Shown: positions 2,564 to 18,375 of the stretch, in pieces | How the letters are laid out: every line of letters begins with the position of its first letter | How positions within the stretch are numbered: the stretch's first letter is position 1 | Assembly: GCA_937858435.1 (NCBI GenBank) | Contig: CALLZJ010000236.1 | Span: 1-34,554, forward strand | Direction of reading: 5' to 3' | Source of the DNA: an uncultured bacterium | GTDB taxonomy: Bacteria > Planctomycetota > Planctomycetia > Gemmatales > HRBIN36 | DNA length: 34,554 bases | Notes under the pieces: model-generated | What the model was told of the DNA's origin: nothing | The model's input: only the letters and a program-made list of their open reading frames with translations | Databases searched by the model: none | Program-made: the position numbers and the translations under genes

Positions 2564-3653
2564 TGGGCGCCTCCTTCTCCGCAGGCTTCTTGCCCTTCTT
2601 TCCCTTAGTCTTGGTGTCGCCCTCACCCTTCACATCGCGCACTGCCCGCTCCTTGTCGAATGGCACTGTCTCGCTCTTGCCGACACCGAAAGCCTTGGCG
2701 GCGGCCGTGGCAAACTGCAACGCATCGTTGTGTGTGAGTTTGATGGGCCTACGTTCGCCACTGGCATAGACTTCGACGAACTCGTTCTCCTGGATCCTTT
2801 CAGGATCGAGCACGAGTAGGCAGCCCTGGCGAAGGTAGCTCGATGGGCTGTGCGTGAAGGCGACCAGAGCGAGACCGAGGATGTAACGGCGCAGGGTTAT
2901 CGTCTTCTCCTGGTCCTTCGCCGCGTGAAGATGCCGGAGGGCGGCAAGTCCCAGAACCGCATCGCGACGTACGCCACCCGTCGCGATGACGCCACCGTGT
3001 GAGCCGGTCGCAGGTACATGGACGAAGCCACGCTCTGCATACGCGTCCTTGGTGGCCTTGTCGGTTGGCTCGTCGAGCAGCTTGTCGTTTACGTATTCAG
3101 TGGCGGGATTGAATTGAGCGGAACGCGTCAACTTCCGCACATTGAAGGCGCGAATCGTTGACGATACTAGCCGTGGCAGTTTGGCCTGAGTGTCGCGGGA
3201 ATCCCAAACGCCGAACACCAGCGACGTTGGCGCGATCTTGGCCAGGGCCGTTGCATCGCCCTTGAGCAGGCTCTTGAAGGCATCCTGAAGTTCTTGCTGT
3301 AGAGAGGAGCAGCGCACGATGGCGTCACCTGCGCGGTGCCCAGCTTCGAGAAGGTTGACTTCCTTCTCGCCAGCCTGAACGACTACTTGCGGGACCAAAT
3401 CCCTGTGCTTCTCGTCCGCGAAGAGTGGTTCGATGCGGTTCGCCTGGGCGCCCACGCTGTCGATTAGGCAGACGTTGGTGCCATTCGGATCGCCGTCAAT
3501 GTTGTACCCGCCGGGAAACCCGTCGCCAGCGGCGTAGGTCGCGGGAAAGAACACCCCATCCTTCCCCTCCACGGGCATGAGGTGCTCGCGGATGACGAGG
3601 GCCGCCGGGCCATCATCGGAGAGGTACTTGTCGAACTTGTTAAGGTCGCTCAT
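2553..3653 (-). CDS. csb1: Type I-G Cas7 backbone protein Csb1 (GSU0053 family)
   Basis: Backbone RAMP protein that polymerises along the crRNA in the type I-G effector complex. It is 366 aa. Family-like stretches are FFPATYAAGDGFPGGYNIDG near residues 36-55, CLIDSVGAQANRIEPLF near 62-78, and a central SLVFGVWDSRD followed by RLVSSTIRAFNVRKLTRS. The last 30 or so residues are a charged, low-complexity tail rich in Lys, Glu and Gly, probably disordered. Start ATG 3653 overlaps the stop of the upstream cas8 gene in an ATGA, with a GAGGTGA Shine-Dalgarno just before. Its end overlaps csb2, so the whole effector set is probably translated in a coupled way. Confidence 0.93.
   Translation of the reverse strand: MSDLNKFDKYLSDDGPAALVIREHLMPVEGKDGVFFPATYAAGDGFPGGYNIDGDPNGTNVCLIDSVGAQANRIEPLFADEKHRDLVPQVVVQAGEKEVNLLEAGHRAGDAIVRCSSLQQELQDAFKSLLKGDATALAKIAPTSLVFGVWDSRDTQAKLPRLVSSTIRAFNVRKLTRSAQFNPATEYVNDKLLDEPTDKATKDAYAERGFVHVPATGSHGGVIATGGVRRDAVLGLAALRHLHAAKDQEKTITLRRYILGLALVAFTHSPSSYLRQGCLLVLDPERIQENEFVEVYASGERRPIKLTHNDALQFATAAAKAFGVGKSETVPFDKERAVRDVKGEGDTKTKGKKGKKPAEKEAPNAE
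2570..2576 (-). promoter_or_regulatory. Ribosome binding site of csb2
   Basis: The minus-strand sequence AAGGAGG ends 6 nt before ATG 2563, inside the last codons of csb1. It is the strongest Shine-Dalgarno in the operon, and it fixes the csb2 start downstream of the longer open frame. Confidence 0.7.
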
Positions 3654-4453
3654 GCATCACCTCGGGCGGAAAGGGGAACAGCGGATCGGAAGGCCTTGTG
3701 TTTGCGTTGTCCGGTGCGGAACCAGTTCTCAAAGCGGAAGCCCAGTGATGTCGGGTCCGCGATATGGCCTGTCACTGCTGCGGGGAGCACCACTGGCGGT
3801 AGCGGCACCGTCCAAGTGAAGTAGTTGAAGACGCGCGGTTTGTCAGTTCGTGGCGGTAATGCTCGTTGCAGGCCGATCAAGCACATCAGTTCAACGGCAG
3901 GATGCGCGAGAGTCGTAAACTGCAGGTCGTTGGCCGAGAACCCCACGTCCCGAGAGTGTGCGTTGGGGCAACGACGCGCATCAAAGTAGTACGGTTCAAC
4001 CTTCTTGGACGGGTTCTCGGGGTCGTAGGCAATCAAGCCAACGTCGAAAAGACTCTCCGTCAAGCAGCGAGGCTCAACTAGGCTCTGCCTTAGCGCATCA
4101 GCAATGCGGAAACTCTCCATCGTACCAGCCCACGGCTTGAGTTCCTTGCCGCCAGCCACTTCATCTTGCCACCAGTCCAAGGTCAACGTGCGGAACGGCT
4201 GGCCAATCGAAATCCGCGTTGATGTCGCATTTTCACTATCAAGAGGCTCCATTTCTGCCTGGAGAAGTGACCTCACGAGAACCTCCAACGTCCCCCCGCA
4301 CTTCATCCGAAACTCCCGTCCGTCTTCCGCGAACCAGCCTTCCGCTCCCGGCCAGAGGCGGTCGGCAAGTTCCAACAGCCCGCAGCAGGCGAAAAACTGG
4401 CCGGGGTTGGTCGGGTCCACGTTCACCCGGATGCTCGGTTCAGGTAGGTTCAT
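3650..4453 (-). CDS. csb3: Type I-G Cas8-like protein (Csb3/GSU0052 family)
   Basis: Small large-subunit-type Cas8 of type I-G systems, 267 aa, found between cas3 and csb1 exactly as in the GSU0051-GSU0054 order. In the effector it is expected to recognise the PAM and contact the target. The N-terminus carries the family signature VDPTNPGQFFACCGLLELAD (residues 12-31), followed by a LTLDWWQDE segment near 90-98 and YYFDARRCPNAHSRDVGFS near 155-173. Both ends overlap neighbours by ATGA (4450-4453 with cas3, 3650-3653 with csb1). Assignment rests on recognised motifs plus conserved gene order. Its exact biochemical role is inferred from other type I systems. Confidence 0.88.
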   Translation of the reverse strand: MNLPEPSIRVNVDPTNPGQFFACCGLLELADRLWPGAEGWFAEDGREFRMKCGGTLEVLVRSLLQAEMEPLDSENATSTRISIGQPFRTLTLDWWQDEVAGGKELKPWAGTMESFRIADALRQSLVEPRCLTESLFDVGLIAYDPENPSKKVEPYYFDARRCPNAHSRDVGFSANDLQFTTLAHPAVELMCLIGLQRALPPRTDKPRVFNYFTWTVPLPPVVLPAAVTGHIADPTSLGFRFENWFRTGQRKHKAFRSAVPLSARGDA

Positions 4454-6939
4454 GCGTCACCCTCCGTCAGGTACTGCGAAGGCGCAGCGCTGGCGGCCCA
4501 GTCGGCGGCCCGCAGCAGCGACTCCAGATAGGCCAGCCCCCACCGGCCGTACTTCCGCTGGAGGCGGGCGAACCGCCGCGGCGTCTCGACAGCGAGGTGG
4601 TCGGCATCGGCCTGCGGCCGCTCCGGGTCGAATGCTTCTTCTTGCGAAAAGTGCGGCCGGCCTCGGCCATGATGGGCGGCGATCAGATGCAACACGAGGT
4701 CTTGCTGATCTTCACTGAGGTTCTTGAGTTCAGGTTGGGTCATCACGTCCAAGAGCGATCCAAATTCGTGGCGATAAGTCTCGTCCAAGCGGCCGCCACG
4801 CTTCCGGCCCGACTTGGCCAGCTTGACTTGCGGGTAATCTGAATTGCCGAGTACTCTTTGGAATGCCTTGCGATCCTTGCCGTGGTCGTGGAACTGGGCA
4901 GCCATGCGAAGCGCAACCTCTAGATCGTTGGAAAGCGACAAGTTGTCCAGGATGCGGTCACATGCGTTGACCACGTCGTTGACGTGAACGTCCCAAAGCA
5001 CCGGCAGCTTCGCAGACTTGTCGCCCTCGTTCCGCAGGGCGAACCACTCCCACATCTTCTCCTCGGCATCCTCGTCCGCACCGGGGAATGTGATCGTGAA
5101 GACCGAATGCAAGCCATCGGTCTTCTCATCGAACCGCTCATCGCCGCTCCACACCCGCGCCCGCTCGGCGGTGTCGGCCACGTCCAACTCCGGCCGGCCC
5201 TCGACCGTCCCGTTCAGCATTCCGCCTTCCAACCCGCCGGCCGACGGCGGGAGCAGTACCGTCATGCCCTCGATTCCATCCCTGTTGTCCTTTTCGGCGA
5301 GTTCCTTCAGCGTCGTCACTTCCACCTTGCCGTTGTCGTCAACGAACCAGACGGGAACGGTCGCGCCAGCCAAGCGCTTCGCCATCGCCTCGAACTGCTT
5401 GAACGCCCGATAGCTCGGCTCCTTTAGCAACTCATGTGGCTTGAGCGGGTAAGCTTCGAGCAATTCCATCGGTTTGTATTTGTCCAACAGGTCGCCGGTG
5501 ATCTTCTCCACCTCTTCCCGCCAGGCGACCTGCGTTTCCGGTGGTTGCCATTCCGCAATGCCGTGAAGGTACGGTTCGACCGGTGGGCGGCCTGGCAGTT
5601 TGCCCTTGATGCTGGTGAGCGCCCAGGCGTCGAACAGGATGTCAGTGGCCGGCAAGATGGTCGGCGTCGGGGCGAAGGCTGCTTGGCGGGCGACGGGATC
5701 GAGATTGCCGAGCGCTGTCGGGCTGCCGTTGCCCTCCAGTTGTTGAAGCAATGGGAGCGTGCGCTCCAAACGTTCTTGGTAGGCAGCGTCCTTGTGCTCC
5801 GTCGAGCAGATGACGTAGATCTCGCTGTCGTTCCGAAGGCCAAAGCGATTCACCCGGCCGAACCGCTGGGCCATACTGTCGAGCGTGGAAAGATCGCAGA
5901 CGAGGTGGTCCGCTGAGATGTTCACACCAACCTCGCCGGCGGCGGTGCAGACGAGGTAGGTCGTCGCTTCGTCGGACTGCCCGCCGGGCAGAAACCGCTT
6001 GAAAAGCGCCTGCTCGGTTAGTTCATCCCGCTCCTTGCCCCGCATCGTGCCGGTGAGGGTGACGACGCGATCCTTCGGCAGCTTGCCTGCGATCTTGAGC
6101 ACGTCATCGACCGTGCGAGCGAATACCAGCACGGCCCGGTTCCTATTGGCCAGCTCGAGAGCCTTGGCCGCGAGCTGGTCGGCCAACTTCTTCGCATCCT
6201 GCGTTAGCTCCAGGTGAAGCTTTTTCCTCGCCGCGACCCGCTCCTTCACGACGGTGTTCTTGTGGTCTTCGTCGGACAAGCCGAACGGCGTTACCTTACC
6301 CCGGCTGGTGGCGGTCAGTTCCATCACCCGCAGCGGTTTGAAGTCCTTGCAGCGGTCTTGCTCGTCGCGGATGGCTTCGATGAGTGTCTGGAACGCCGGT
6401 TCGAGGTGCGCCTCGTCGTGGACGAGCAGCGCGTCCTGGCCGAGGAAGCCGGCGTGCAGCGGCTTCGCCCTGAAGCCAACGCCATAGCCGCTGAACAACA
6501 GCCGCGAACCGATCATGTCCACCGTGCCGCAGATGACCGCTGGACGGGACGGGTCGGCGGACCACTCGCGGTTGTCGGCGAACTGGCCGCGCAGGGTGCT
6601 CAGTGCCAGGCCTCGGCCACCGAGCCAGTTTCGCAAAGACTCTAATTCAGGTGTTGTTTCAATGGCTTCCCGATACTTCTTCACTTCCTCTGTCGTCTGA
6701 TCGACCACCGTACGCCGATTGACGACGTAGACCAGTCGCTTCGGCAGCTTGTTCTGGGTGTTCGCCAGGGCGATCAGCCAAACGGCAATGACGGACGTCT
6801 TCCCCAGCCCCGTCGGCAGATTGCAGCAGGCCACCTTCTCCCATTCCCCCGCCAGAAGATGCTCGTACATCTTCTCCTGCCAGGGAAACGGCGCATGGCC
6901 CGTCAGATGCTCGAAAGTGCTCCCGAACGCTGCGTTCAT
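4450..6939 (-). CDS. cas3: Type I-G Cas3 helicase-nuclease with C-terminal HD domain (GSU0051 family)
   Basis: Effector nuclease-helicase recruited by the crRNA complex to unwind and degrade target DNA. Translated from ATG 6939 it is 829 aa. SF2 helicase motifs come first: Walker A LPTGLGKT (residues 41-48), motif II HDEAH (174-178), motif III ELTATSRG, and motif VI MAQRFGRVNRFG. The HD nuclease follows at the C-terminus with FHDHGKDRKAF (HD at about 684-685) and HLIAAHHGRG downstream. Helicase-then-HD is the reverse of most type I Cas3 proteins and fits the type I-G family. The open frame extends to a TTG at 6969, but ATG 6939 has GAGG about 8 nt upstream and starts just before the conserved FPWQEKMYEHL segment. 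It is the first gene of the operon, transcribed away from the RHS array. Confidence 0.95.
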   Translation of the reverse strand: MNAAFGSTFEHLTGHAPFPWQEKMYEHLLAGEWEKVACCNLPTGLGKTSVIAVWLIALANTQNKLPKRLVYVVNRRTVVDQTTEEVKKYREAIETTPELESLRNWLGGRGLALSTLRGQFADNREWSADPSRPAVICGTVDMIGSRLLFSGYGVGFRAKPLHAGFLGQDALLVHDEAHLEPAFQTLIEAIRDEQDRCKDFKPLRVMELTATSRGKVTPFGLSDEDHKNTVVKERVAARKKLHLELTQDAKKLADQLAAKALELANRNRAVLVFARTVDDVLKIAGKLPKDRVVTLTGTMRGKERDELTEQALFKRFLPGGQSDEATTYLVCTAAGEVGVNISADHLVCDLSTLDSMAQRFGRVNRFGLRNDSEIYVICSTEHKDAAYQERLERTLPLLQQLEGNGSPTALGNLDPVARQAAFAPTPTILPATDILFDAWALTSIKGKLPGRPPVEPYLHGIAEWQPPETQVAWREEVEKITGDLLDKYKPMELLEAYPLKPHELLKEPSYRAFKQFEAMAKRLAGATVPVWFVDDNGKVEVTTLKELAEKDNRDGIEGMTVLLPPSAGGLEGGMLNGTVEGRPELDVADTAERARVWSGDERFDEKTDGLHSVFTITFPGADEDAEEKMWEWFALRNEGDKSAKLPVLWDVHVNDVVNACDRILDNLSLSNDLEVALRMAAQFHDHGKDRKAFQRVLGNSDYPQVKLAKSGRKRGGRLDETYRHEFGSLLDVMTQPELKNLSEDQQDLVLHLIAAHHGRGRPHFSQEEAFDPERPQADADHLAVETPRRFARLQRKYGRWGLAYLESLLRAADWAASAAPSQYLTEGDA

Positions 6940-7054
6940 GGCCGACCTCGCCAAGAGGACAATCGTCAAGAGTGTACGTCCGCATCCTGGTGCGGTCTAG
7001 GAAAATCGCCATCCAATTCGAAAGGGCTTGGTTGCGTGACACAACTCGCCGACG

Positions 7055-8503
7055 ATGACGCTGGGCAGCGGCGTCGACGGGGCGGTGCGGCGGATCGAGA
7101 CGGCCTACGATACGGCCGGCCGGGCGTTCCGCTTCACGAGCTACGACGCCGCCTCGGCAGGAAATATTGTGAACGAAGTGGAACGGAGCTATAATGGCCT
7201 GGGTCAGTTGATCACCGAATGGCAGGCCCACGGGGGCGCTGTGAATACGAGCACGGCACCCAAGGCGCGGAGTTCAGGCCTAGGCATCCAGAGGCCCCGG
7301 ATGGCTGATGCTGCCTGGCCCGTCGACCGTCCACGCCGACTCATCCGCCGCCCTTCCTGGCGCAGCAGGCGGATCAAACAAGGCGGCACGGCGCTGTACT
7401 ACTCGGCCGACTGGCAAGTGCTGGAAGAGCGCGACGGCGGCGGCATCGCCCGTGTCTCTATGGTCTGGAGCCCGGTCTACATCGATGCGATGATCGCCCG
7501 GGACCGCGATGCGGATACTAACGGTTCGCTGGAAGAACGCCTCTACGTCGCCCATGATGCGAACTTCAATGTCAGTTCCATCATCAACACCAGCGGCTCG
7601 GCCCTCGAACGCTTCATCTTCGACCCCTACGGCTCGCCCACGTTCCTGAACGGCAGTTGGAGTGTGATTGGCTCTTCCGCCTATGCGTGGACGCACCTGC
7701 ACCAGGGTGGACGGCAGTCCTCCGCCAGTAGCCTGTATCACTTCCGCCACCGGGAGTTGTCCTCCACCCTCGGCCGGTGGAACCGGAATGATCCGATCCT
7801 CTTCCGCGGTGATGATACTAGTCTTCTGCGGTATGTGGGCTCGAGCCCCCTCAACCTCACTGATCCTTCTGGCACGCAGCCTCCGCGCAAAGTCATCTAT
7901 CCGGAACGTCCGCAGCGCGCAATTGCCGAGGGCGGCGACGAGCGCGGGTGGCGACTTGAAGGCCCAAGTGATTGCTTCTTCATGGGAAACGATTGTCCAG
8001 ATGATTGGTATGGAGACCACGATCCTAATAACCAACCAAAGCAACTTCCTGGTGGCGTTCCAAGCCTGTGCAGGGTCCATGGGATGAGAATCTGTCGAGG
8101 TAACGACGACAAGGTCATTAGGTATCGAACTGTCAAGGCTCTGTGTGATGCCTTTGAGGATTCACGCAGGGACTGGCGCGTATGTAGTCGGATTACGGTT
8201 TTTGGCCACGGATGTGGCGATGGAGTCGGGCTTGGCGAAGGCAACTTGGTTCCTGGCGCGATCGCTGCACACTGCGCCAGAGCGATTCGCTCCCTCCTTT
8301 CAGGAGGCGGCGTCTTTCGGATTTGCGGATGCCAGGATGCATCTAGTCGGCAACAAGTAGAAGAGGGTGTGGCCTCCTGGTGGAGAGCGATCGGCAGCAT
8401 TCCTGGCATCTCTGTCTGCATGTGTCTCGGCTTAGCCCAACCTCAGGAAGGCAAGGCATGCGTATGCCGGGGCGAGTGGATTTGTCATCCGGCGAAGAAG
8501 TGA
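7055..8503 (+). CDS. RHS orphan-tip cassette 1: RHS-core fragment with Cys-rich C-terminal toxin-like tip
   Basis: 482 aa from ATG 7055. Residues about 1-70 match the RHS/YD core piece called segment A here (VERSYNGLGQLITEWQAHGG). A basic linker at 71-108 replaces some 270 residues of core present in cassette 3. Segment B (LYYSADWQVLEERDGGG through GRWNRNDPI) runs to about 250, ending at the RHS hallmark DPSG (270-273). The tip, 274-482, is Cys-rich. It has a strand ending FGHG (His385), a strand ending RICGC (Cys426), then VCMC and the ending GEWICHP. It shares this pattern with tips 2 and 3. I infer a Cys-His enzyme of caspase/CHAT-like type; the family is not one I can name. No N-terminal RHS, PAAR or export signal is present, so it is an orphan tip, not a complete toxin. 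A partner gene follows after 9 nt. Confidence 0.8.
   Translation: MTLGSGVDGAVRRIETAYDTAGRAFRFTSYDAASAGNIVNEVERSYNGLGQLITEWQAHGGAVNTSTAPKARSSGLGIQRPRMADAAWPVDRPRRLIRRPSWRSRRIKQGGTALYYSADWQVLEERDGGGIARVSMVWSPVYIDAMIARDRDADTNGSLEERLYVAHDANFNVSSIINTSGSALERFIFDPYGSPTFLNGSWSVIGSSAYAWTHLHQGGRQSSASSLYHFRHRELSSTLGRWNRNDPILFRGDDTSLLRYVGSSPLNLTDPSGTQPPRKVIYPERPQRAIAEGGDERGWRLEGPSDCFFMGNDCPDDWYGDHDPNNQPKQLPGGVPSLCRVHGMRICRGNDDKVIRYRTVKALCDAFEDSRRDWRVCSRITVFGHGCGDGVGLGEGNLVPGAIAAHCARAIRSLLSGGGVFRICGCQDASSRQQVEEGVASWWRAIGSIPGISVCMCLGLAQPQEGKACVCRGEWICHPAKK
7169..7267 (+). repeat. RHS segment A repeat (first of six copies)
   Basis: A stretch of about 99 bp coding for VNEVERSYNGLGQLITEWQA and a following GGAVNTST recurs at 7169-7267, 9346-9444, 11264-11346 (partial), 13984-14082, 16175-16291 (with an 18-nt insertion) and 17733-17799 (partial). 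All are on the plus strand. Copies are highly similar at the DNA level and mark the left homology arm of each cassette. Confidence 0.85.
7379..7798 (+). repeat. RHS segment B repeat (first of five copies)
   Basis: A block of about 420 bp from QGGTALYYSADW to GRW..NDPI, just before the tip, recurs at 7379-7798, 9559-9978, 12163 to about 12540 (divergent end), 14194-14613 and 16444-16702 (5' part lost). It could act as the right homology arm for exchanging tips. The first, second and fourth copies are equally long without indels. Confidence 0.85.
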
Positions 8504-8512
8504 ACCAGCCAC

Positions 8513-8983
8513 ATGAGAATGCGTACACTATTATGGGCGGTCCTACTCCTGGCCGCAGTGTCGGGAATATGTGTCCTTTATTGTCGACAATACACTAGAC
8601 CAGTCTTTGACTCAAGAGTTGACCTCAGTGCTCTATTGCAGTGTACGGAGATTACCGTTGAACTTAGCGCTGCAACTAGGGAAAAGTACAATGCAACACT
8701 GAAGCTTGCTGACAACATTCGCCGTGTTCACCGAACTCTTTCACACCATATTATAGTAGATACTCGCAGCCGATCCTTGTACTGGCGCGGGAATATTACT
8801 GGTATTACAAGAACGGGTGAGACCGTGGTAATTGATATTTTCGGGCCATCGTATGGCAGGTACCGCGGCATCCATTTTGTTTTCGAGTTGGGCCCGTTGC
8901 TCGAAGATCTCAAGGTGCTAAAATGGTTCGGCCGTGAAGTGGATCTCGGAGAGGTCGATAGGAAACTGGGAAAGCCTCCGTGA
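8513..8983 (+). CDS. Putative immunity partner of tip 1, membrane-anchored
   Basis: 156 aa starting MRMRTLLWAVLLLAAVSGIC, a signal-anchor or signal peptide (residues 4-22), then a soluble domain of probable beta-strands, including GETVVIDIFG and RGIHFVFEL. It starts 9 nt after the stop of tip 1 on the same strand, the usual toxin-then-immunity order of polymorphic toxin loci. I do not recognise its family, so the immunity role is inferred from position. An in-frame ATG at 8519 is an alternative start. The N-terminal membrane segment suggests it works outside the cytoplasm. Confidence 0.68.
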   Translation: MRMRTLLWAVLLLAAVSGICVLYCRQYTRPVFDSRVDLSALLQCTEITVELSAATREKYNATLKLADNIRRVHRTLSHHIIVDTRSRSLYWRGNITGITRTGETVVIDIFGPSYGRYRGIHFVFELGPLLEDLKVLKWFGREVDLGEVDRKLGKPP

Positions 8984-9010
8984 TTGGTCTAGTTGTTTAC
9001 AATAGCGACT

Positions 9011-9196
9011 GCCCGAGGCGGAACCGCGTCGTCAGCACCTGGATCGGCACCAACGATACGCCCGCCAGCGGCTCCTGGTTGCCGAGCAACATCACTTCTC
9101 CCGCGAACATGGTCCAGGTGGCGGAGTACGAGTACGACGGCGGCGGCGACTCGGGCGGGTGGCATGGTCTGGCGGTACTCCGCCTGACCATGTGAG
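9011..9196 (+). pseudogene. Displaced remnant of an upstream RHS-core segment
   Basis: The frame around NRVVSTWIGTNDTPASGSW and NMVQVAEYEYDGGG matches a segment I know from the middle of planctomycete RHS repeats, normally well upstream of segment A. Here it stands alone between immunity gene 1 and cassette 2, with no start codon or ribosome binding site, and stops at TGA 9193-9195. The following bases, 9197-9345, hold no clear gene. They contain a second similar short GACGGCG...GACTCGGGC stretch (about 9258-9275) before cassette 2 homology begins at 9346. Confidence 0.55.
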
Positions 9197-9231
9197 CCTT
9201 GAGGTGACGTGATGCTCTGCTTTCTGGGCGC

Positions 9232-10665
9232 TTGGCTTCCTCGGTCCACCGTCACGACGGCGATGGCGACTCGGGCTGGAGCGATGCGTTCAGCGTCGCT
9301 GGCGATGCCGTGCCCGAACAGGTCGAGCTCGCCTGCAATGGCATTGTGAGCGAAGTGGAACGAAGCTACAATGGTCTGGGTCAGTTGATCACCGAATGGC
9401 AGGCCCACGGGGGCGCCGTGAATACGAGCACGTCACCCAAGGTGCTGACTTCAGGCCGGGCAACCCGGCGGCCTTGCGCGCCCAGTGCTGGCTGGCCCAT
9501 TGACCGACCTCGCCGACCTCGAGTCCGTCGTTCTTCGTCGTTGGGTCGCCGCGTGCAGCAAGGCTCCACGGCCCTCTACTATTCAGCTGACTGGCAAGTG
9601 CTCGAAGAACGCGACGGCGGCGGCATCGCCCGTGTCTCCATGGTCTGGAGTCCCGTCTACATCGATGCCGTGATCGCCCGGGACCGCGATTCGGACAGCA
9701 ACGGCTCCCTCGAAGAACGGCTGTACGTCGCCCATGATGCGAACTTCAATGTCTCGTCGATCCTGAACACCAGCGGCTCGGCCGTCGAGCGCTTCCTCCT
9801 CGATCCCTACGGCAGCCCGACGTTCCTGGACGCCGCATGGAGTGTGATTGGCTCTTCCGCCTACGCCTGGACGCACCTACACCAAGGTGGATGGCAGTCC
9901 GCCGCCAGCAGCCTCTGCCACTTCCGGCATCGGGAGTTTAGCCCTACGCTGGGCCGGTGGATGACGAATGATCCGATTCACTTTCGTGCAAAGGATTTCA
10001 ATCTCTACCGCGCGTACTCGGGGAATGCTCTGAGCTTCAACGATGCGTCGGGGCTTGCGGCGTATCATGGCGACCCAAAGCCCAAGCCCGGAACGGGAAG
10101 CGGAAATCCGAACATCGATTGTGGGCCTGACGCAAGTGCGCCCGTTCCGCCAGATATTGGACATCCGCCGAGGCCAAGGGTTGGCTTTTGCTATTGGTCA
10201 ATCGCAAGCATTCACGGTGAGGGCTACGAGTGCGGCGGTAGTTGGCTCACTCAGGATCATGGCATCAGAAATCTCGAGGCTGCATGCGAGAGACTAAGGA
10301 CCACTTGCAATCAGCGTTGTCAACGACTTGTCATCTCAGGCCACGGAGCATTGCCCCTCGTTGGTTTCAGTGAAATTGCCCAAGGATGTTGGATGAATCC
10401 GGGCTTCCCGCCAAGACTCGTTGTCACTCCTGATCTGCAACGAGCGGCTCGCTGCCTGCAAGCCATTCTCCCGGGTGACGCTTATGTGCAGATGGGTGCC
10501 TGCCACACTTTTCCTGGCAATCCCCCTGCGTACTTTGGAGCCTGCTTGAAGGCGCTTGCTCGGCTGATGGACCGCAAGGTCTGTGCTTGTGTGGGTTGCG
10601 GCCTGATTTCTGAGCCAGACTGTCGAACGCGATGTACTGGTAAATGGTGTTGTGCGCAACCATGA
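9232..10665 (+). CDS. RHS orphan-tip cassette 2: RHS-core fragment with Cys-rich tip
   Basis: The open frame gives 477 aa from a TTG at 9232, but RHS homology begins only at 9346 (segment A), and no ribosome binding site supports the start. A linker (9445-9558) stands where core sequence is missing. Segment B (9559-9978) ends in GRWMTNDPI, and the RHS hallmark is weakened to NDASG (about residues 271-274). The tip, 275-477, has at least 13 Cys. It contains QRLVISGHG (His371), a strand ending QMGAC (Cys424), KVCACVGCG and the ending GKWCC. This aligns with tips 1 and 3 and most clearly resembles the His...Cys layout of caspase/CHAT-type peptidases. That enzyme class is an inference. The partner gene begins 48 nt downstream. 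Confidence 0.78.
   Translation: MASSVHRHDGDGDSGWSDAFSVAGDAVPEQVELACNGIVSEVERSYNGLGQLITEWQAHGGAVNTSTSPKVLTSGRATRRPCAPSAGWPIDRPRRPRVRRSSSLGRRVQQGSTALYYSADWQVLEERDGGGIARVSMVWSPVYIDAVIARDRDSDSNGSLEERLYVAHDANFNVSSILNTSGSAVERFLLDPYGSPTFLDAAWSVIGSSAYAWTHLHQGGWQSAASSLCHFRHREFSPTLGRWMTNDPIHFRAKDFNLYRAYSGNALSFNDASGLAAYHGDPKPKPGTGSGNPNIDCGPDASAPVPPDIGHPPRPRVGFCYWSIASIHGEGYECGGSWLTQDHGIRNLEAACERLRTTCNQRCQRLVISGHGALPLVGFSEIAQGCWMNPGFPPRLVVTPDLQRAARCLQAILPGDAYVQMGACHTFPGNPPAYFGACLKALARLMDRKVCACVGCGLISEPDCRTRCTGKWCCAQP
9883..9978 (+). repeat. Near-identical 96-bp block shared with cassette 5
   Basis: Positions 9883-9978 and 16607-16702 differ at only three bases, all within the first 11; the rest is identical. 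Cassettes 1 and 4 differ from it throughout. This indicates recent recombination or gene conversion between cassettes 2 and 5 immediately upstream of the tip junction. Confidence 0.8.
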
Positions 10666-10713
10666 TAGCTGGTGTAGCGCAACTACACGTGTGTCTTGCT
10701 ATGGAGGCGTCCA

Positions 10714-11232
10714 ATGCTTAGATTATGCATGGCAGCCCTGCTCTCTTGTGCCGCTGCTCACGACGAGCAAGAACGGCTGTGGCAATTGCCAAAGAAGGAG
10801 GACATCAAGAACATCACCGTCAACGAATTGGCCGGCGGCCTTCATCATTTCGGCGTCAAGTTGAAGGAGCCCGAATTCTTTCGCCTTCCTATGCGATTGG
10901 ACCCGCGAGTTCACGGGATGCTCATGGAGTCCTTCTTCGACTCTCAGGCAATCGAGCCACGGCCCCAAGTAGTCGTCCAATGGTCATCCTGGGCGAAGCT
11001 GACCATTGAAACTCGTTCAGGAGAGACGACGACAGTCTTTCTCTTCTTTACTCGAGAGGAGAAAGGCGCCTATGCGGTCCATGGACATGGAGGCCGCACC
11101 AAGTACCGCGGGGGGAATCCTCTCGTATCGATTGCGGTGCTTTGTGCTTGTGTTGACTTTACCAATCAGTCCGGCGGGGCAACACGCCCCGAGGGTGCGC
11201 CCAAAGGGCCTGGGGAGCCGCGGAAGCCGTAA
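10714..11232 (+). CDS. Putative immunity partner of tip 2, exported or lipoprotein
   Basis: 172 aa from ATG 10714, chosen because GGAGG lies about 8 nt upstream; the open frame reaches 10696. The N-terminus MLRLCMAALLSCAAAHDEQ is a short signal sequence, and LLSC could be a weak lipobox. The body contains QVVVQWSSWAKLTIETRSG and TTTVFLFFTREEKG, probable beta-strands. A second hydrophobic stretch (LVSIAVLCACVDF) precedes a Pro/Gly-rich tail, which may reflect a fusion or frameshift at the 3' end. The family is not recognised. Position directly after tip 2 suggests immunity. Confidence 0.65.
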   Translation: MLRLCMAALLSCAAAHDEQERLWQLPKKEDIKNITVNELAGGLHHFGVKLKEPEFFRLPMRLDPRVHGMLMESFFDSQAIEPRPQVVVQWSSWAKLTIETRSGETTTVFLFFTREEKGAYAVHGHGGRTKYRGGNPLVSIAVLCACVDFTNQSGGATRPEGAPKGPGEPRKP

Positions 11233-11280
11233 GCCATTTTCAGGTTCCCACCGCCGCAGCGGCGGAGCTATAATGGCCTG

Positions 11281-11637
11281 GGTCAGTTGATCACCGAATG
11301 GCAGGCCCGCGGGGGCGCTGTGAATACGAGCACTTCACCCAAGGCGCAATACGCCTACTCGGAGATGCCGAGCGGGGCGAATCATCCGCGCCTGTCTTCG
11401 ATCACGTATCCCAATGGCCGGGTCATCACGTACAACTACGCCGCCGGCTTGGCGAGCGACATCTCGCGGCTCTCCTCCATCAGCGACGGCGGCACGACAC
11501 TCGAAGGCTTCGACTACCTCGGCCTGGGCACCATCGTCCGGCGAGCACACCCCGAAGCGGGCGTCGACCTAACCTACATCAGGCAGGGCATGGAGTCGGA
11601 CGGTGACGCGGGCGACAAGTACACGGGCCTGGACCGC
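11281..11637 (+). repeat. Near-identical 357-bp RHS core block shared with cassette 6 remnant
   Basis: Positions 11281-11637 and 17733-18089 align without gaps and with few substitutions. Because the copies flank cassettes 3 to 5 in direct orientation, recombination between them could excise or duplicate about 6.5 kb. Confidence 0.8.
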
Positions 11638-13203
11638 TTCGGCCGGGTTGTGGATCAGCGCTGGCTCAAGACGAGCAACGGCAGTCACGTCGACCGGTTC
11701 CAGTACGGTTATGATCGCAACGGCAATCGGCTCTACGAGCAGAACCTCGTCGACGCGGCGTTCAGCGAGTTGTATCACGCTAACGGTGCGTCGAATGGTT
11801 ATGACCAGCTGAACCAACTCACGGCCTTCCGCCGGGGTGTGTTGTCGGATACCAACAGCGACGGTATCCCCGATACGGTCAGTTCGCCGAGCCGGACGCA
11901 GGAATGGCTCTTCGATCCGCTGGGCAACTGGACGACGTTGACGACGAATGGCACGGCCCAGAGCCGGACGCATAATCGGCAGAACCAGATTACGTCGATT
12001 ACCAGTCTCACCACGCCGAGTTATGATGCCAATGGCAACATGACGGGTGATGAGAATGGCAAGACGCTGGTCTATGATGCCTGGAACCGGCTGGTCGACT
12101 ACAAGAACGGGTCCACGTCGCTGGAAGCGTATCAGTACGATGCCCTGGGCCGACGCGTGCAGCAAGGCTCAACCGCTCTCTACTACTCCGCCGACTGGCA
12201 AGTGATCGAGGAGCGCGACGGCGGCGGCATCGCCCGTGTCTCCATGGTCTGGAGTCCCGTCTACATCGATGCGATGATTGCCCGCGACCGCGATGCCGAT
12301 GTTAACGGTTCGCTGGAAGAACGCCTCTACGTCGCCCATGATGCGAACTTCAATGTCTCGTCGATCCTGAACACCGGTGGCTCAACCCTCGAACGCTTCA
12401 TCCTCGCCCCCTACGGCAGTCCGACGTTCCTGAACGGCAGCTGGTCCGCCATCGGCGCCTCGGCGTACTCCTGGACGCACCTGCACCAGGGCGGGCGCTT
12501 TAGCAGTGGTAGCGGCCTGTATGTGCAGAACGAAGGGAGCTTCTCGGCTACTCTTGGATATCTGGTCGCCGCAGCAGCATCTCCAGGCGGGAAGCCCGCC
12601 CTCGCACGCTATCGGAACCAAGGTGGCCCCAAAGATCCGCTCGGCGATCACGAAGACGCGTACATGCCTCCAAGGGAGGGTGATCTGATAATCCGCGGCT
12701 GCGACTACCAAGGAGCCAAGCCACTTCCGTGGAAAGAAATCCACGAGTACTGCAAGAAGCGAGGCGCGACCAGTCCGGACAAGCAATTCTGTGATCACAA
12801 GAGCTTGTGTGACTATCTAAGCACCGTCGAAGGCAATGGCGCATTTGGCCGCTTGTTCCTTGTTGGTCATTGCGGCGGCAAGCTCCCGCCTGGCGTTCGG
12901 ATCGGCAACCAATCTCGCCTCACTTGCGACTCCCTAAGTGAAGAGTGCAAGAGAGAGATCAAGCGCCTTGTGCGGCCTGGAGGTACAGTAGTCCTATGCG
13001 CTTGTGGGTATCGCAATGAACTCCCTCCAGGCGACTTCGACAAGGAGCTGAGTTGCTGGGCCAGAGTACTTGGCTTGCGCGTGTGCGCTTGCGACTCCAA
13101 GATGGAGGTGTACAATCCCGCGCGAGGTGGCAACCGCGAGGGCATTTGTGCTTGCTACAAGGGCATCGATGGCACGCGAGGCCGTTGGCACTGCAAGCCA
13201 TAG
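11287..13203 (+). CDS. RHS orphan-tip cassette 3: longest RHS core in the array with Cys-rich tip
   Basis: 638 aa from a TTG; core homology already starts at 11264. This is the only cassette keeping the full core between segments A and B, with many YD-type repeats such as YAYSEMPSGANHPRLSSITY, FQYGYDRNGNRLYEQNLV, YDANGNMTGDENGKTLVYD and YQYDALGRRVQQGSTALYY. Segment B then diverges. The usual HFRHRE...LGRW(x)NDP block is replaced by YVQNEGSFSATLGYL, although DPLG survives at residues 450-453. The tip (454-638) has GRLFLVGHCGG (His528), TVVLCACG (Cys573), LRVCACDS and the ending GRWHCKP, so it belongs to the same family as tips 1 and 2. The partner gene starts 15 nt downstream. No ribosome binding site or true start is visible. 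Confidence 0.8.
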   Translation: MITEWQARGGAVNTSTSPKAQYAYSEMPSGANHPRLSSITYPNGRVITYNYAAGLASDISRLSSISDGGTTLEGFDYLGLGTIVRRAHPEAGVDLTYIRQGMESDGDAGDKYTGLDRFGRVVDQRWLKTSNGSHVDRFQYGYDRNGNRLYEQNLVDAAFSELYHANGASNGYDQLNQLTAFRRGVLSDTNSDGIPDTVSSPSRTQEWLFDPLGNWTTLTTNGTAQSRTHNRQNQITSITSLTTPSYDANGNMTGDENGKTLVYDAWNRLVDYKNGSTSLEAYQYDALGRRVQQGSTALYYSADWQVIEERDGGGIARVSMVWSPVYIDAMIARDRDADVNGSLEERLYVAHDANFNVSSILNTGGSTLERFILAPYGSPTFLNGSWSAIGASAYSWTHLHQGGRFSSGSGLYVQNEGSFSATLGYLVAAAASPGGKPALARYRNQGGPKDPLGDHEDAYMPPREGDLIIRGCDYQGAKPLPWKEIHEYCKKRGATSPDKQFCDHKSLCDYLSTVEGNGAFGRLFLVGHCGGKLPPGVRIGNQSRLTCDSLSEECKREIKRLVRPGGTVVLCACGYRNELPPGDFDKELSCWARVLGLRVCACDSKMEVYNPARGGNREGICACYKGIDGTRGRWHCKP

Positions 13204-13218: not shown

Positions 13219-13797
13219 ATGTCCCAGGTCGATATACACAAAGGACGCTGGAGCAAGCTGGCTTGGCCGGCCAGCACTTTGGCTGCATTTGCGCTGGGCG
13301 CCCTTGGCACGGGCTTGATCGCCCAATTCTTCAGGACCGATCCACCGGAGCTTCCTTGGTTGTCTAAGCGTCTCCGCGACATGCTCGGAATACGTTTCGA
13401 GGATGTCGCAGAAATCCACTTTGACGTGAAGCTCGACGCGCTCGTGTCTAGTGGAGAGCACAAGCGGTACGAAGAAAGACGGTATGTATGGAAGTTAACT
13501 CCTGAGGATTTCCGCACCAGTCCCGAGACTAGCACTGCAAAGGAGAATCGCCGCCGAGAGGAGTGCAGACTGGCGGTTACTTCATTGCTTGAAGCCGCAC
13601 CCATATCGACACAAGGCGCGACCGAAGGCGCCGGGACTATCACGCTGGTGATGCGCGATGGCAAGCGTTACCAAGTCTGGTGGGACGTCATGGGGTATCT
13701 CGCCTGGATTGACGAACATGAGAAGCACTGGTCGTTCGTTTTTGACGCTCCACTGATTCGCGGCGTTCTCATGGGATGGGGCACAGAAGTCAAGTAG
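13219..13797 (+). CDS. Putative immunity partner of tip 3, membrane-anchored
   Basis: 192 aa with one N-terminal transmembrane segment (about residues 15-38, ASTLAAFALGALGTGLIAQF) and a soluble domain after it. The domain includes FEDVAEIHFDVKLDALVSSG, a charged middle (TAKENRRREE) and ITLVMRDGKRYQVWWDV before HWSFVFDAPL. It starts 15 nt after the stop of tip 3. The family is unknown to me. The layout, a membrane anchor plus a beta-rich domain, is like the partner of tip 1, although direct sequence similarity is weak. From 13798 to 13941 no gene is evident. Confidence 0.67.
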   Translation: MSQVDIHKGRWSKLAWPASTLAAFALGALGTGLIAQFFRTDPPELPWLSKRLRDMLGIRFEDVAEIHFDVKLDALVSSGEHKRYEERRYVWKLTPEDFRTSPETSTAKENRRREECRLAVTSLLEAAPISTQGATEGAGTITLVMRDGKRYQVWWDVMGYLAWIDEHEKHWSFVFDAPLIRGVLMGWGTEVK

Positions 13798-13923: not shown

Positions 13924-15141
13924 TTGCAACCAGTTCCAGCCTTCCGCTTCACCAGCTACGACGCGGCCGGCTCGGGAACTATTGTGAACGAGGTGGAGCG
14001 GGGGTACAATGGTCTGGGTCAGTTGATCACCGAATGGCAGGCCCACGGGGGCGCTGTGAATACGAGCACGTCAACGAAGGTGCGGAGTTCAGGCCGTGCG
14101 GGCCAGCGACTGCACGCCGATGGTGCTGCCTGGCCCGTCGACCGTCCACGCCGACCCATGCGCCGCCCTTCCTGGCGCAACCGCCGGACCAAACAAGGCG
14201 GCACGGCGCTGTACTACTCGGCCGACTGGCAAGTGCTCGAAGAGCGCGACGGTGGCGGCATCGCCCGCGTCTCCATGGTCTGGTCGCCGGTCTACATCGA
14301 TGCGATGATTGCCCGCGACCGCGATTCGGACAGCAACGGCTCCCTCGAAGAACGGCTGTACGTGGCCCATGACGCGAACTTCAATGCCAGTTCCATCATC
14401 AATACCAGCGGCTCGGCCGTCGAACGCTTCATCCTCGACCCCTACGGCAGCCCGACGTTCCTCGACGGCAGTTGGAGCGCCATCGGCAGTTCCGCCTATG
14501 CTTGGACGCACCTGCATCAAGGCGGCCGACATTCGAGTGCGAACAACCTCTACCACTTCCGTCATCGCGACCTGAACCCCACCCTGGGCCGGTGGATAAC
14601 GAATGACCCGATTGGATTTGCTGCGGGCGACGAGAACTTCCTGCGAGTGGCCGGAAATCAACCGGTCGACAATGTTGATCCGCTCGGCCTAATGCTGTGT
14701 CCAGAAGGCAAGCGCCTAGCCCATGTACAATACTGCCTAATTGAACATTCTGAGTATCGAGGGACTGGCTGTCAAATCACGCAACGTCCTGGTCCAGCCC
14801 CCGAACCGGATGGCTGTTCGCTCCCGGATTGGCTAAACTGGGGTTCACAAAGCGTCGGAAGGCGAATCTTCCTGGACTGCTGCAACAAGCACGACGAATG
14901 CTACTCCACATGCTCGAGGGGTAACAGGCAATCAAACTGTGACACGGCGTTCTTGCAGTGCATGCTCAAACGGTGCCAACTTGAGAAGCGCTGGCAAGGT
15001 TTTTGGTTCAGCTTGTCTGGATGCTATGAAATTGCCCTAGCGTTTTATGATGCAGTTCGACTATTTGGTGACAGCAGATACGTTGCCGCAAAAAACCAAG
15101 CCTGCGTCTGCTGTTGCTCCGACTTCGGGTGTCGCCTATGA
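13924..15141 (+). CDS. RHS orphan-tip cassette 4: RHS-core fragment with phospholipase A2 tip
   Basis: 405 aa from a TTG at 13924. RHS homology begins about 13942 with FRFTSYDAAGSG, then segment A, a basic linker like that of cassette 1, and segment B ending GRWITNDPIGF. The hallmark VDPLGL lies near residues 251-256. The tip (256-405) carries the phospholipase A2 signature CCNKHDECY (residues 319-327, catalytic His323 with Asp324 binding Ca2+). CDTAFLQCMLKRC follows, and LPDWLNWGS sits upstream where the Ca2+ loop belongs. It would hydrolyse the sn-2 ester of phospholipids, a membrane-damaging activity. The many Cys residues suggest disulfides and function outside the cytoplasm. The partner gene overlaps its stop by ATGA. 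No convincing start or ribosome binding site is present. Confidence 0.85.
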   Translation: MQPVPAFRFTSYDAAGSGTIVNEVERGYNGLGQLITEWQAHGGAVNTSTSTKVRSSGRAGQRLHADGAAWPVDRPRRPMRRPSWRNRRTKQGGTALYYSADWQVLEERDGGGIARVSMVWSPVYIDAMIARDRDSDSNGSLEERLYVAHDANFNASSIINTSGSAVERFILDPYGSPTFLDGSWSAIGSSAYAWTHLHQGGRHSSANNLYHFRHRDLNPTLGRWITNDPIGFAAGDENFLRVAGNQPVDNVDPLGLMLCPEGKRLAHVQYCLIEHSEYRGTGCQITQRPGPAPEPDGCSLPDWLNWGSQSVGRRIFLDCCNKHDECYSTCSRGNRQSNCDTAFLQCMLKRCQLEKRWQGFWFSLSGCYEIALAFYDAVRLFGDSRYVAAKNQACVCCCSDFGCRL

Positions 15142-15995
15142 ACGGGCGAGTCGAGCTTGATTCCTGGCCAGGCTGGGGGCTTGTCACCCTGGCAACCATG
15201 GCCATGCTTTTGACTGGGATGGTTACTCCCTTTATCCCCGTCGCCGCTCCGTTTTTTGTTGCTGCGGCGATCCTGGTCGTCGGCGCATTCAGGGGTTGGC
15301 GCGGCACACGCTGGGTGGGCATCGGGCTAGGAATCTCAATGGTTCTGCCAGGTGTGCTGCTCTTGAAGCCCGCTTGGGAGGCATTCTCGACTGGCGGTGC
15401 GCAACCGGGTGGCGTCGGCGAACCCGTGCATGCCGGCATGGGCGGCCTTGCCTTCCTGCTGGCGGTTCTTGGCATGGTGAACGGGGCCTTGATGCTCTTG
15501 GCGTGCGCAGTCGCGCCGAGTCGAGCCCCATCCTGCCACCGAGCAGCCGAACGGCGGGAAGCTTCCCACGGCAGGGTAAGCAACGGCGGCTCGGTTTTCG
15601 ACCTGAGCGACTCGTCAAGGCATGTGCCAGTTTACAGAAAACCTGGGATACTGGCGCTGGGGTGTGTGATCGCAACAAGTCAATGTATAGTGGGTATATA
15701 CTTGAGTTCGTTTTTCATGTGGCCATTTCTGGCAGCATACTTCTTAGTGGCGGCTTGGCATGGTGCACGCACAATCATATCACCGGACGGATATGCGGTG
15801 CTCATGGTCTGGCCGCCAATGGTAGCGCACATTACCGCCGCGCATGCCTCGTTTGCGATGCCAGTGCATCCTTTTAGTGTCGTGGTGTACTTTGTGGTGT
15901 ACTTTGTCGTGAGCTGGCTTGGGTGCACTCTTGGCGCCCGGGGGCGGCTAAAGTCGGATGGATCCGTTGTCGCCACGCGTGCGCAGGAGCCATGA
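15138..15995 (+). CDS. Putative immunity partner of PLA2 tip 4, polytopic membrane protein
   Basis: 285 aa from ATG 15138, which overlaps the TGA of tip 4, so the pair is translationally coupled. Hydrophobic segments (about seven) include LVTLATMAMLLTGMVTPFIP, VAAPFFVAAAILVVGAF, GIGLGISMVLPGVLLL, GLAFLLAVLGMVNGALMLLA, a pair around IVGIYLSSFFMWPFLAAYFL, and FSVVVYFVVYFVVSWLGCTL. A hydrophilic loop of about 45 residues splits it in half. A multi-pass membrane protein is a sensible partner for a toxin that attacks phospholipids. That link is inference, and the family is not recognised. From 15996 to about 16130 there is no gene. Confidence 0.75.
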   Translation: MNGRVELDSWPGWGLVTLATMAMLLTGMVTPFIPVAAPFFVAAAILVVGAFRGWRGTRWVGIGLGISMVLPGVLLLKPAWEAFSTGGAQPGGVGEPVHAGMGGLAFLLAVLGMVNGALMLLACAVAPSRAPSCHRAAERREASHGRVSNGGSVFDLSDSSRHVPVYRKPGILALGCVIATSQCIVGIYLSSFFMWPFLAAYFLVAAWHGARTIISPDGYAVLMVWPPMVAHITAAHASFAMPVHPFSVVVYFVVYFVVSWLGCTLGARGRLKSDGSVVATRAQEP

Positions 15996-16130: not shown

Positions 16131-17299
16131 GGCCGGCGTTTGCTCCACGACCTACCGCCGCAGATGGAGATCTAGTGAACCAAGTGCAGCGCGGGTACAA
16201 TAGCTTGGGTCAGTTGGTCGTGGACTGGAAGGCCCAAGGCGGCGAGCACTAAACCGGGGGCGCCGTGAACACGAGCACGTTAACGAAGGTGCGGAGTTCA
16301 GGCCGGGCGGGTCATCCGCTGCGGGTGGCGGCTGCCCAGCCAGTTCAGGCGGCTGGCGGTCAGCCAGTTCGGAAGGCTGATGTTTCTAGGGTCATTAACC
16401 CACTTCGCGGAGGATACCGGCGGCGAGATACCATGGAGAAACGCCTCTACGTCGCCCATGATGCGAACTTTAATGTCTCGTCGATCCTGAACACCAGCGG
16501 CTCGGCCGTCGAACGCTACGTCCTCGATCCCTATGGCTCGCCCACGTTCCTGAACGGCAGTTGGTCCGCCATCGGCACTTCCGCCTATGCGTGGTCGCAC
16601 CTGCATCAAGGCGGCCGGCAGTCCGCCGCCAGCAGCCTCTGCCACTTCCGGCATCGGGAGTTTAGCCCTACGCTGGGCCGGTGGATGACGAATGATCCGA
16701 TTGGGTTCCACGGATGGGATCTATCCCTTTACCGAGCATTCGCAGGCACTCCGCGTAGCATACGCGACCCCGAGGGTCTCCTGGCTTGCCAGGGTCAACA
16801 AGTCGAGGCGCCTCAGCCCTTTGATCCGTGCAAACGCATCAGAGACATTCTGGAAGCCTATGCGCGCGCCATTACACTTAAGCAAGGAATAGACGCAGTC
16901 CAGTCAGTACTCAGAGTGAGGATGGTGTTTCGCATTGCAACCTCCACCATCTGGGAGCCACGAAATGTCGGTCTCCCTCGACCCGGCGAAAAGTAGGGAG
17001 AGCTTGTTGCCCGTCCAATCTTTTTCCCTGGGTTCGTTATCAATCTCGTCAATAGCTTTCTAGTTGAACAGATAATTGCAGACATGGTGCGACGCGGCAA
17101 AGTGAAGCCCGAGGACTTCTGTCGCCAGCTGGCCAACTGCGAGGCTGTTTTCAACGGTAGAAGGCAGGGTGTGTTCATCATTGGCAATGCGGATTGGGCG
17201 GGCGGAGGACAGCGATTCAAGTGCGAGTGGGGCAAGGACGGTGGCTATATGTGGAAGGAGTGGGGTTGGAGATATGCATTGGGACTTGACACGTGGTGA
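16131..17299 (+). pseudogene. Decayed RHS orphan-tip cassette 5
   Basis: Segment A (16175-16291) carries an 18-nt insertion that includes an in-frame TAA at 16250-16252. A frame change lies just upstream, where the FTSYDAA-like stretch is split. Segment B is shortened: the linker joins straight to KRLYVAHDANFNVSSI, then continues to GRWMTNDPIGF and RDPEG. The tip is interrupted by TAG at 16994-16996, and the same frame stays open past it to TGA 17299, through GFVINLVNSFLVEQIIADM, FCRQLANCEAVFNGR and WKEWGWRYALG. Pieces readable as separate proteins are 16265-16996 (243 aa, GTG) and 17084-17299 (71 aa). The tip does not align with tips 1-4 and I do not recognise its family. The partner gene downstream is intact. 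Confidence 0.72.
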
Positions 17300-17732: not shown

Positions 17733-18092
17733 GGTCAGTTGATCACCGAATGGCAGGCCCACGGGGGCGCTGTGAATACGAGCACTTCACCCAAGGTGCA
17801 GTACGCCTACTCGGAGATGCCGAGCGGGGCGAATCATTCGCGCCTGTCTTCGATCACGTATCCCAATGGCCGGGTCATCACGTACAACTACGCCTCCGGC
17901 TTGGCCAGCGACATCTCGCGGCTCTCCTCCATCAGTGACGGCGGCACGACGCTCGAAGGCTACGACTACCTCGGCCTGGGCACGGTCGTGCGGCGGACGC
18001 ACCCCGAAGCGAGCGTCGACCTGACCTACATCAAGCAAGCTCGGGAAGCGAACGGCGACGCGGGCGACCAGTACACGGGCCTGGATCGCTGA
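17733..18092 (+). pseudogene. Truncated RHS-core fragment (cassette 6 remnant)
   Basis: Begins abruptly 6 nt after the stop of the cassette 5 partner, in the middle of segment A (GQLITEWQAHGGAVNTST), and follows the cassette 3 core collinearly. It ends after YTGLDR at a TGA (18090-18092). Positions 17733-18089 match 11281-11637 without gaps and with few mismatches. It has no tip, no start codon and no partner gene. The next features are tRNA genes, so this marks the right end of the array. Confidence 0.75.
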
Positions 18093-18141
18093 TGGAACGC
18101 GGCAAACGGGAAGATATCCGATCTATCCGTGAAGGGCTGAG

Positions 18142-18223
18142 TGCGAGAGGGGGGAGTCGAACCCCCACGGGTTGCCCCACTGGATCCTAAGTCCAGCGCG
18201 TCTGCCAGTTCCGCCACTCTCGC
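18142..18223 (-). tRNA. tRNA-Leu (anticodon UAG)
   Basis: 82 nt including the discriminator base, without encoded CCA. The acceptor stem pairs GCGAGAG with CTCTCGC, the anticodon stem CTGGA/TCCAG encloses CTTAGGA (anticodon TAG, forward-strand 18187-18189), and the T arm is GGGGG-TTCGACT-CCCCC. The extended variable arm (TGGGGCAACCCGT) is the class II feature expected for Leu. It lies 49 nt beyond the end of the RHS remnant. Confidence 0.96.
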
Positions 18224-18303
18224 GGTCGCGTGGCCATTCCATCATAACGGGACGCCGGTCAGGGCCCCCGGGTTCGGGGTCAGGGCCTCCGGCTGGCCGG
18301 CAG

Positions 18304-18375
18304 TGGGCGCTGCAGGTTTCGAACCTGCGACCCCCTCGGTGTAAGCGAGGTGCTCTACCGCTGAGCTAAGCGCCC
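18304..18375 (-). tRNA. tRNA-Val (anticodon UAC)
   Basis: 72 nt including the discriminator, without encoded CCA. The acceptor stem is GGGCGCT/AGCGCCC, the D arm GCTC...GAGC, the anticodon stem CCTCG/CGAGG around CTTACAC (anticodon TAC), and the T arm GCAGG-TTCGAAA-CCTGC. It lies 80 nt from tRNA-Leu on the same strand, so the two may be cotranscribed. The 226 nt between it and lspA show no gene. Confidence 0.96.

Follow-up and report, generated by a model that had tools for sequence, protein, structure and literature searches.

Cysteine-rich, probably caspase-like toxin tips in orphan Rhs cassettes of an uncultured planctomycete

The window analysed here is the whole of one contig (C236, 34554 bp; GenBank CALLZJ010000236.1, assembly GCA_937858435.1) from an uncultured bacterium, and on its + strand, from 7055 to ~18100, 5'-truncated Rhs cores are arrayed in tandem, the majority continuing into a different 3' tip. 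The tips of the first three of these orphan Rhs cassettes (tips 1-3) are probably C-terminal toxins of the caspase-like (clan CD type) cysteine-protease kind that carry disulfide bonds and act outside the cytoplasm, and their family is, with the same likelihood, a distant sister of the Pfam family DUF4347. C-terminal caspase-like toxins have already been described, and what is new is the tip family, absent from Pfam and NCBIfam, and its cysteine-rich form; the papers found describe neither the family nor its DUF4347 link nor the cysteine-rich form. The result is a function prediction with named catalytic residues for an uncatalogued toxin family, and it would connect DUF4347, itself uncharacterised, with the Rhs-based warfare of planctomycetes.

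Shared motifs and predicted fold of tips 1-3

The tips and the residues considered are as follows:
7871..8503, + strand: tip 1, with the predicted caspase-like domain at ~8063-8500 (shared motifs, AlphaFold2 model)
8207..8209, + strand: codon of tip 1 His385 (GHG), predicted catalytic, where strand 43-50 of the model ends
8330..8332, + strand: codon of tip 1 Cys426, predicted catalytic, immediately following strand 84-89 of the model
10057..10665, + strand: tip 2, predicted domain ~10171-10662, His371 at 10342-10344 and Cys424 at 10501-10503
12610..13203, + strand: tip 3, predicted domain 12670-13200, His528 at 12868-12870 and Cys573 at 13003-13005 (AlphaFold2 model, Foldseek)

The original prediction had described one ordered pattern common to the three tips, and all of it but the first element is borne out by translation: GHG, GHG and GHC place His385, His371 and His528, respectively; Cys426, Cys424 and Cys573 follow after 41, 53 and 45 residues (predicted as 42-54, counted inclusively); VCxC comes next (VCMC, VCAC, VCAC), and all three have a C-terminal GxWxC (GEWIC, GKWCC, GRWHC). 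The first element, given as Leu-x-x-hydrophobic-Cys, is not shared, since the segments read VKALC, LEAAC and HKSLC, with Leu at that place in tip 2 only, and the element actually common to the three is [KE]-[AS]-[LA]-C-[DE]. The aligned tips are ~25-29% identical, and none of them has a Pfam or NCBIfam domain match. In leave-one-out scoring with profile hidden Markov models (HMMs), tip 1 reached 16.2 bits and tip 3 14.7 bits, against best scores of 9.3 and 6.7, respectively, among 1000 composition-preserving shuffles. Judged by such sequence scores, the sharing of motifs exceeds chance, clearly in tips 1 and 3 and only just in tip 2.

The placement of the two residues was then considered in AlphaFold2 models of tips 1 and 3, tip 2 being placed by alignment only. 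In the tip 3 model (predicted local distance difference test, pLDDT, 78; predicted template-modelling score, pTM, 0.82) His67 ends strand 59-67 and Cys112 follows strand 101-111, while in that of tip 1 (pLDDT 81, pTM 0.81) His49 ends strand 43-50, Cys90 follows strand 84-89, and the VCxC, CVC and WxC motifs lie on C-terminal strands. The secondary structure of both models has the clan CD layout, i.e., an alpha/beta core in which the His closes one strand and the Cys follows the core strand that comes next. Structure prediction with Foldseek, the check suggested at the outset, gave mainly clan CD-type matches for tip 3 (~37 of the 50 best PDB matches: caspases, legumain, TcdB and RTX cysteine protease domains, separase, SAVED-CHAT and Tce1) and weak ones for tip 1, whose first ten include 1k88, 7d5y, 3fzy and two TcdB entries. 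The Tce1 match of tip 3 (9qpe_G, template-modelling (TM) score 0.47/0.47) has the best target-normalised TM among the first 50. Thus, the caspase-like fold is well supported by modelling, although unproven, with the placement of His and Cys judged from secondary structure. Legumain, gingipain, clostripain and the TcdB/RTX cysteine protease domains, several of which act outside the cytoplasm, share with the tips the predicted fold and the dyad placement, but they have no detectable sequence similarity to them, are not Rhs tips and are less cysteine-rich.

Several observations weigh against the protease-toxin reading. The models were built from shallow, four-sequence alignments; all TM-scores of tip 3 are below 0.5 and its single top match is an aminotransferase; the matches of tip 1 are not significant (best E=0.06). 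Tip 2 is the weakest of the three by sequence (7.1 bits in the leave-one-out scoring, with one of the 1000 shuffles higher), and no peptidase-family match was obtained for the tips in Pfam, NCBIfam or PADLOC. VKOR, a disulfide-forming enzyme tried as the source of disulfides, was not found in the source genome or its family, and a full-length Rhs carrier with the same core was not found in the assembly.

Relatives in other genomes and the DUF4347 comparison

A profile of the three tips (alignment A2), run over 398 class genomes, gave as its best matches outside the window two loci, L010 (E=3.7e-10) and L011 (E=1.5e-4), each of them the C-terminal tip of an Rhs protein in a member of the Planctomycetia from a family other than that of the source genome. 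They retain R-x4-GH and (T/S)CGYY and possess just two or three cysteines per whole tip. Across the five family tips (~25% identity) no column is invariant but those of R, G, H (of GH), C and V, so that the His and the Cys singled out by the original prediction are two of the five invariant residues, and the predicted caspase-like domain is the last in the protein in all five members. No relatives were found in genome_contigs (searched with tip 1), in viral_contigs or among plasmids; a scan of genome_contigs with the L010 tip returned its own genome only, a sequence search of the PDB with the tip profile returned nothing, and phylum-wide profile searches, with the weak hits of one of them inspected in part, gave just chance matches, such as an aminoacylase. 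Weak matches in the window's own genome (L002-L004) were rejected after inspection, and a GHG...GCN stretch in another genome (L041, G557), interrupted by an in-frame stop, may be broken and was not counted in the family.

The next two matches of the same profile, L012 and L013, are Pfam-confirmed DUF4347 proteins (1e-23 and 4.5e-8, respectively). They belong to a set of seven DUF4347 members (alignment A8), which is not wholly independent of the tip profile, these two having been first found by it, while Pfam identifies all seven by itself. The hhalign comparison of A2 with A8 scored 42.6 (E=2.4e-6), and that of alignment A3 with A8 44.1, against a maximum of 17.9 among 200 column shuffles and 15.3 and 17.2 for the reversed alignment; in the homologous core the GH of the tips falls on the HG of DUF4347 and their Cys on its GC, and the aligned region stops at the VCxC strand, leaving out the cysteine-rich tail. 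The DUF4347 (PF14252) proteins, including Tce1/PA0256, likewise have the GH...C layout, the ordered strands and the LG/G loop after the His, whereas the window tips are undetected by the Pfam model, C-terminal in Rhs proteins and dense in cysteine. None of the five tips has a DUF4347 hit in Pfam at E<=1, and relaxing the threshold to E<=10 for tips 1 and 3 gave none either; no tip reaches the Pfam cut-off, and they are therefore relatives of DUF4347 rather than filed members of a family that is itself rare (5 of 59 class genomes). The layout originally likened to caspase, CHAT and DUF4347 folds is backed by the profile comparison, the predicted folds and the clan CD matches, and of the families named it is DUF4347 that fits. 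CHAT (PF12770) was rejected as the closest family: it shares the broad fold, and GACHTF of tip 2 recalls the CHAT motif SACxT, but the comparison with twelve CHAT domains (19.3, shuffles up to 17.2) was not significant. A further Rhs tip from the same taxonomic order (L090, G488:C1) carries GHG...ICSQA and has a weak DUF4347 match (E=0.018), so that repeated origin or diversification of such tips is possible.

The role of a delivered cysteine-protease toxin is proposed by analogy with Tce1 and Tce2 (PMC8262886, PMC13323088) and with the C-terminal caspase-like toxins (PMC3482391). Tce1, which is PA0256 of P. aeruginosa and carries DUF4347 (PMC8262886), is loaded by the type VI secretion system as a putative cysteine protease with a His186/Cys240 dyad, and the toxicity of its companion Tce2 to yeast is relieved when the Tce2 active site is mutated (PMC13323088). 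Tce1 is a delivered effector; it differs from the tips in its N-terminal extension and in having no evident immunity gene (PMC13323088). It is unlikely that the tips keep the caspase/DUF4347 fold for a binding or structural role, or for another Cys-His reaction. Such a role would agree with DUF4347 being uncharacterised in Pfam and in some large proteins of surface type lying close to the N-terminus (e.g., L060), with Tce1 not being toxic in yeast (PMC13323088), and with the loss of catalytic residues in some caspase repeats, as noted in the treatment of polymorphic toxins in PMC3482391; it accords poorly with the His and Cys being kept among the few invariant residues of very diverged tips and with the toxin-tip position followed by partner genes.

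The closest described class is Tox-Caspase (Zhang et al. 2012, PMC3482391), in which a caspase-like domain with H and C residues likewise stands last in a polymorphic toxin, the fold of the present tips being predicted. The Tox-Caspase row of that work does not list planctomycetes, its text names bacteroidetes, gammaproteobacteria and actinobacteria, and a cysteine-rich, DUF4347-like form goes unmentioned in these passages. According to its account of domain order, the C-terminal-most position in polymorphic toxins marks the toxin and not a processing peptidase (PMC3482391), and the tip domain is read as the toxin because it holds that position. That it is instead a processing peptidase, as in RTX or large clostridial toxins, is highly improbable: caspase-like domains are described there as often freeing a neighbouring toxin (PMC3482391), and processing domains do occur among the Foldseek matches, but nothing follows the domain in any of the five proteins.

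Extra cysteines and the proposed mode of action

The cysteine content of tips 1, 2 and 3 is 7.1, 8.4 and 7.6% (15, 17 and 15 residues, respectively), that of the phospholipase A2 tip of the fourth cassette 11.3%, and that of two tips on another contig of the genome, C263, 7.6 and 6.3%. All six Rhs tips of the genome, whatever their family, thus fall at 6.3-11.3%, against 0-1.1% in the cores, 0-2.2% in eight other genes of the window, and 0-4.8% (median 0.9%) in 28 Rhs tips that follow a similar core in other planctomycetes; the ranges of the six and the 28 tips do not overlap (exact Mann-Whitney p=7e-7, relatedness ignored). Cysteine-richness is a property of the tip repertoire of this genome, laid over different folds. 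The extra residues are not part of the fold, because they are few in L010 and L011, which have the same core, yet present in all the tips of the genome, and this accounts for the earlier remark that so many cysteines would be unusual for a caspase-type fold: the unrelated phospholipase A2 tip has them as well. Cysteine-richness in all the Rhs tips found in a single genome, regardless of fold, makes it testable whether the redox environment, and not the fold, shapes a toxin repertoire.

The simplest reading of the extra cysteines is disulfides, because of the phospholipase A2 tip, which matches the group XII secretory type, and the signal or membrane N-termini of the partner genes. The counts of 15, 17 and 15 equal an even number plus the predicted catalytic Cys, which is weak evidence, with a chance of 1 in 8. 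VKOR was not found, but effectors can be oxidised after delivery by the DsbA of the target cell (PMC5792426, on Ssp2 and Ssp4). That the domains are zinc-binding or otherwise metal-stabilised toxins, with CxC...CxC...WxC and GHG/GHC as ligands and a superficial resemblance to caspases, is very unlikely. The dense CxC and CxxxC pairs, the closeness in sequence of two VCxC/CxC strands in the tip 1 model and the missing VKOR would suit metal binding; however, L010 and L011 retain the H and C and lose nearly all other cysteines, tips of unrelated fold, the secretory phospholipase A2 included, are equally rich in them, and the DUF4347 similarity is independent of the cysteine-rich tail.

Cassette context, tip homology, DUF4347 profile similarity, predicted fold and dyad placement, cysteine enrichment and partner N-termini were computed directly, and from them we infer a course that runs from recombination through toxicity to immunity. 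Recombination through the repeated core would supply an exported Rhs protein of full length with a tip, which would be cut free and delivered; the strand-ending His and the Cys that follows the next core strand would form a dyad cleaving a target protein; six to eight disulfides may stabilise the tip outside the cytoplasm, the catalytic Cys being left free; and the membrane- or signal-bearing partner would block the tip in kin. A bolder reading that we hold possible but doubtful is that the whole cysteine-rich Rhs tip repertoire, with its caspase-like, phospholipase A2 and unclassified tips, consists of toxins hardened by disulfides that are inactive in the reducing cytoplasm of the producer and are switched on by oxidation only after delivery, in which case tips 1-3 would be oxidation-activated caspase-like toxins.

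The Rhs array, partner genes and genome context

The array was delimited by the repeat families D1-D5 and by matches to TIGR03696, PF05593 and TIGR01643. An Rhs core stands directly upstream of each variable C-terminal domain (TIGR03696 in open reading frames (ORFs) 1, 2 and 4, RHS/YD repeats in ORF3), and the cassettes diverge in sequence after the core, i.e., in the tips, as seen in the repeat families and the tip alignment. Its elements and the partner genes of tips 1-3 are:
7055-8503, + strand: ORF1, whole (translation), ending in tip 1
7055..7870, + strand: truncated Rhs core of ORF1, 272 aa, ending DPSG (TIGR03696 Rhs_assc_core E=7e-10; repeat families D1-D3, D5)
8513..8983, + strand: putative immunity gene of tip 1 (156 aa), starting 9 bp beyond the stop codon of the tip, with an N-terminal membrane segment (max KD19 2.47 at residue 6)
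9232-10665, + strand: ORF2, whole (translation), ending in tip 2
9232..10056, + strand: truncated Rhs core of ORF2 (TIGR03696 E=5e-11)
10714..11232, + strand: putative immunity gene of tip 2 (172 aa, counted from the ATG at 10714), by position and signal-like N-terminus MLRLCMAALLSCAAA
11287-13203, + strand: ORF3, whole (translation), ending in tip 3
11287..12609, + strand: Rhs core of ORF3, the longest of the array (RHS_repeat PF05593 E=3e-8)
13219..13797, + strand: putative immunity gene of tip 3 (192 aa), 15 bp beyond the stop codon of the tip, with an N-terminal membrane segment (KD19 1.63 at residue 20)
13924..15141, + strand: fourth cassette, Rhs core and cysteine-rich phospholipase A2 tip (14689-15138; PLA2G12 PF06951 E=5e-12)
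16255..16996, + strand: core of a fifth cassette, degraded (repeat families D1 and D5; core sequence)
17733..18101, + strand: tip-less 5' core fragment at the array end, beside two tRNA genes (D4 repeat; tRNAs)

The small signal or membrane genes lie 9-48 bp downstream of tips 1-3, and a signal-like or membrane segment occurs in the downstream genes of all eight cassettes examined. One shared immunity family for the three partners was not supported, with no mutual BLASTP similarity among them. In the relatives L010 and L011 a downstream gene with an N-terminal membrane segment (at 1685-2737 and from 1970, respectively) follows within 10 bp, and a WD40-type beta-propeller, clear in the downstream genes of L010 and L041 (2278-3165) and weak in that of L011, possibly marks immunity proteins of a kind different from those of the window. 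The phospholipase A2 tip, with 17 Cys in 150 residues, is followed by a gene for a multi-pass membrane protein at 15114-15995.

The state of the cores bears on whether the cassettes are non-functional relics of an Rhs locus, with the motifs as inherited remnants, which is decidedly unlikely. The 5' truncation of the cores, the large internal deletion in three of them, the degenerate final core motif of tip 3 and the missing carrier would fit decay; on the other side, the three tips and their partner genes are all intact open frames, the dyad is kept at ~25% identity, and the carrier may be unassembled, as a second array reaches a contig end. Orphan Rhs tips are, moreover, normally silent reservoirs. 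The third-position G+C of the tips is 0.52-0.64 versus 0.73-0.79 in the cores, a lower value being usual for acquired tips.

The internal deletion is common to ORFs 1, 2 and 4 relative to ORF3 (7264-7370, 9440-9550, 14080-14180), and its junction, conserved, Arg/Pro-rich and read through, recurs in the tip-A cassette on C263. This second array with the same core (L057, G000:C263; 4786-5793 and 6512-7777, - strand) runs to the contig end and holds two further cysteine-rich tips, neither of which matches Pfam; downstream of each lies a small gene with a membrane segment. The source genome (4.1 Mb, 92% complete, 473 contigs) is that of a planctomycete, with BBP7 encoded in the window, and genomes of the same order, which is probably Gemmatales, are mostly 4-12 Mb. 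Directly right of the tip-less core fragment, tRNA-Leu and tRNA-Val (17733-18375 with the fragment) may mark an island boundary, and on the left the array is adjoined by a CRISPR operon (1061-6969, - strand) with Cas3, in which the helicase precedes the HD domain, GSU0053 and GSU0054.

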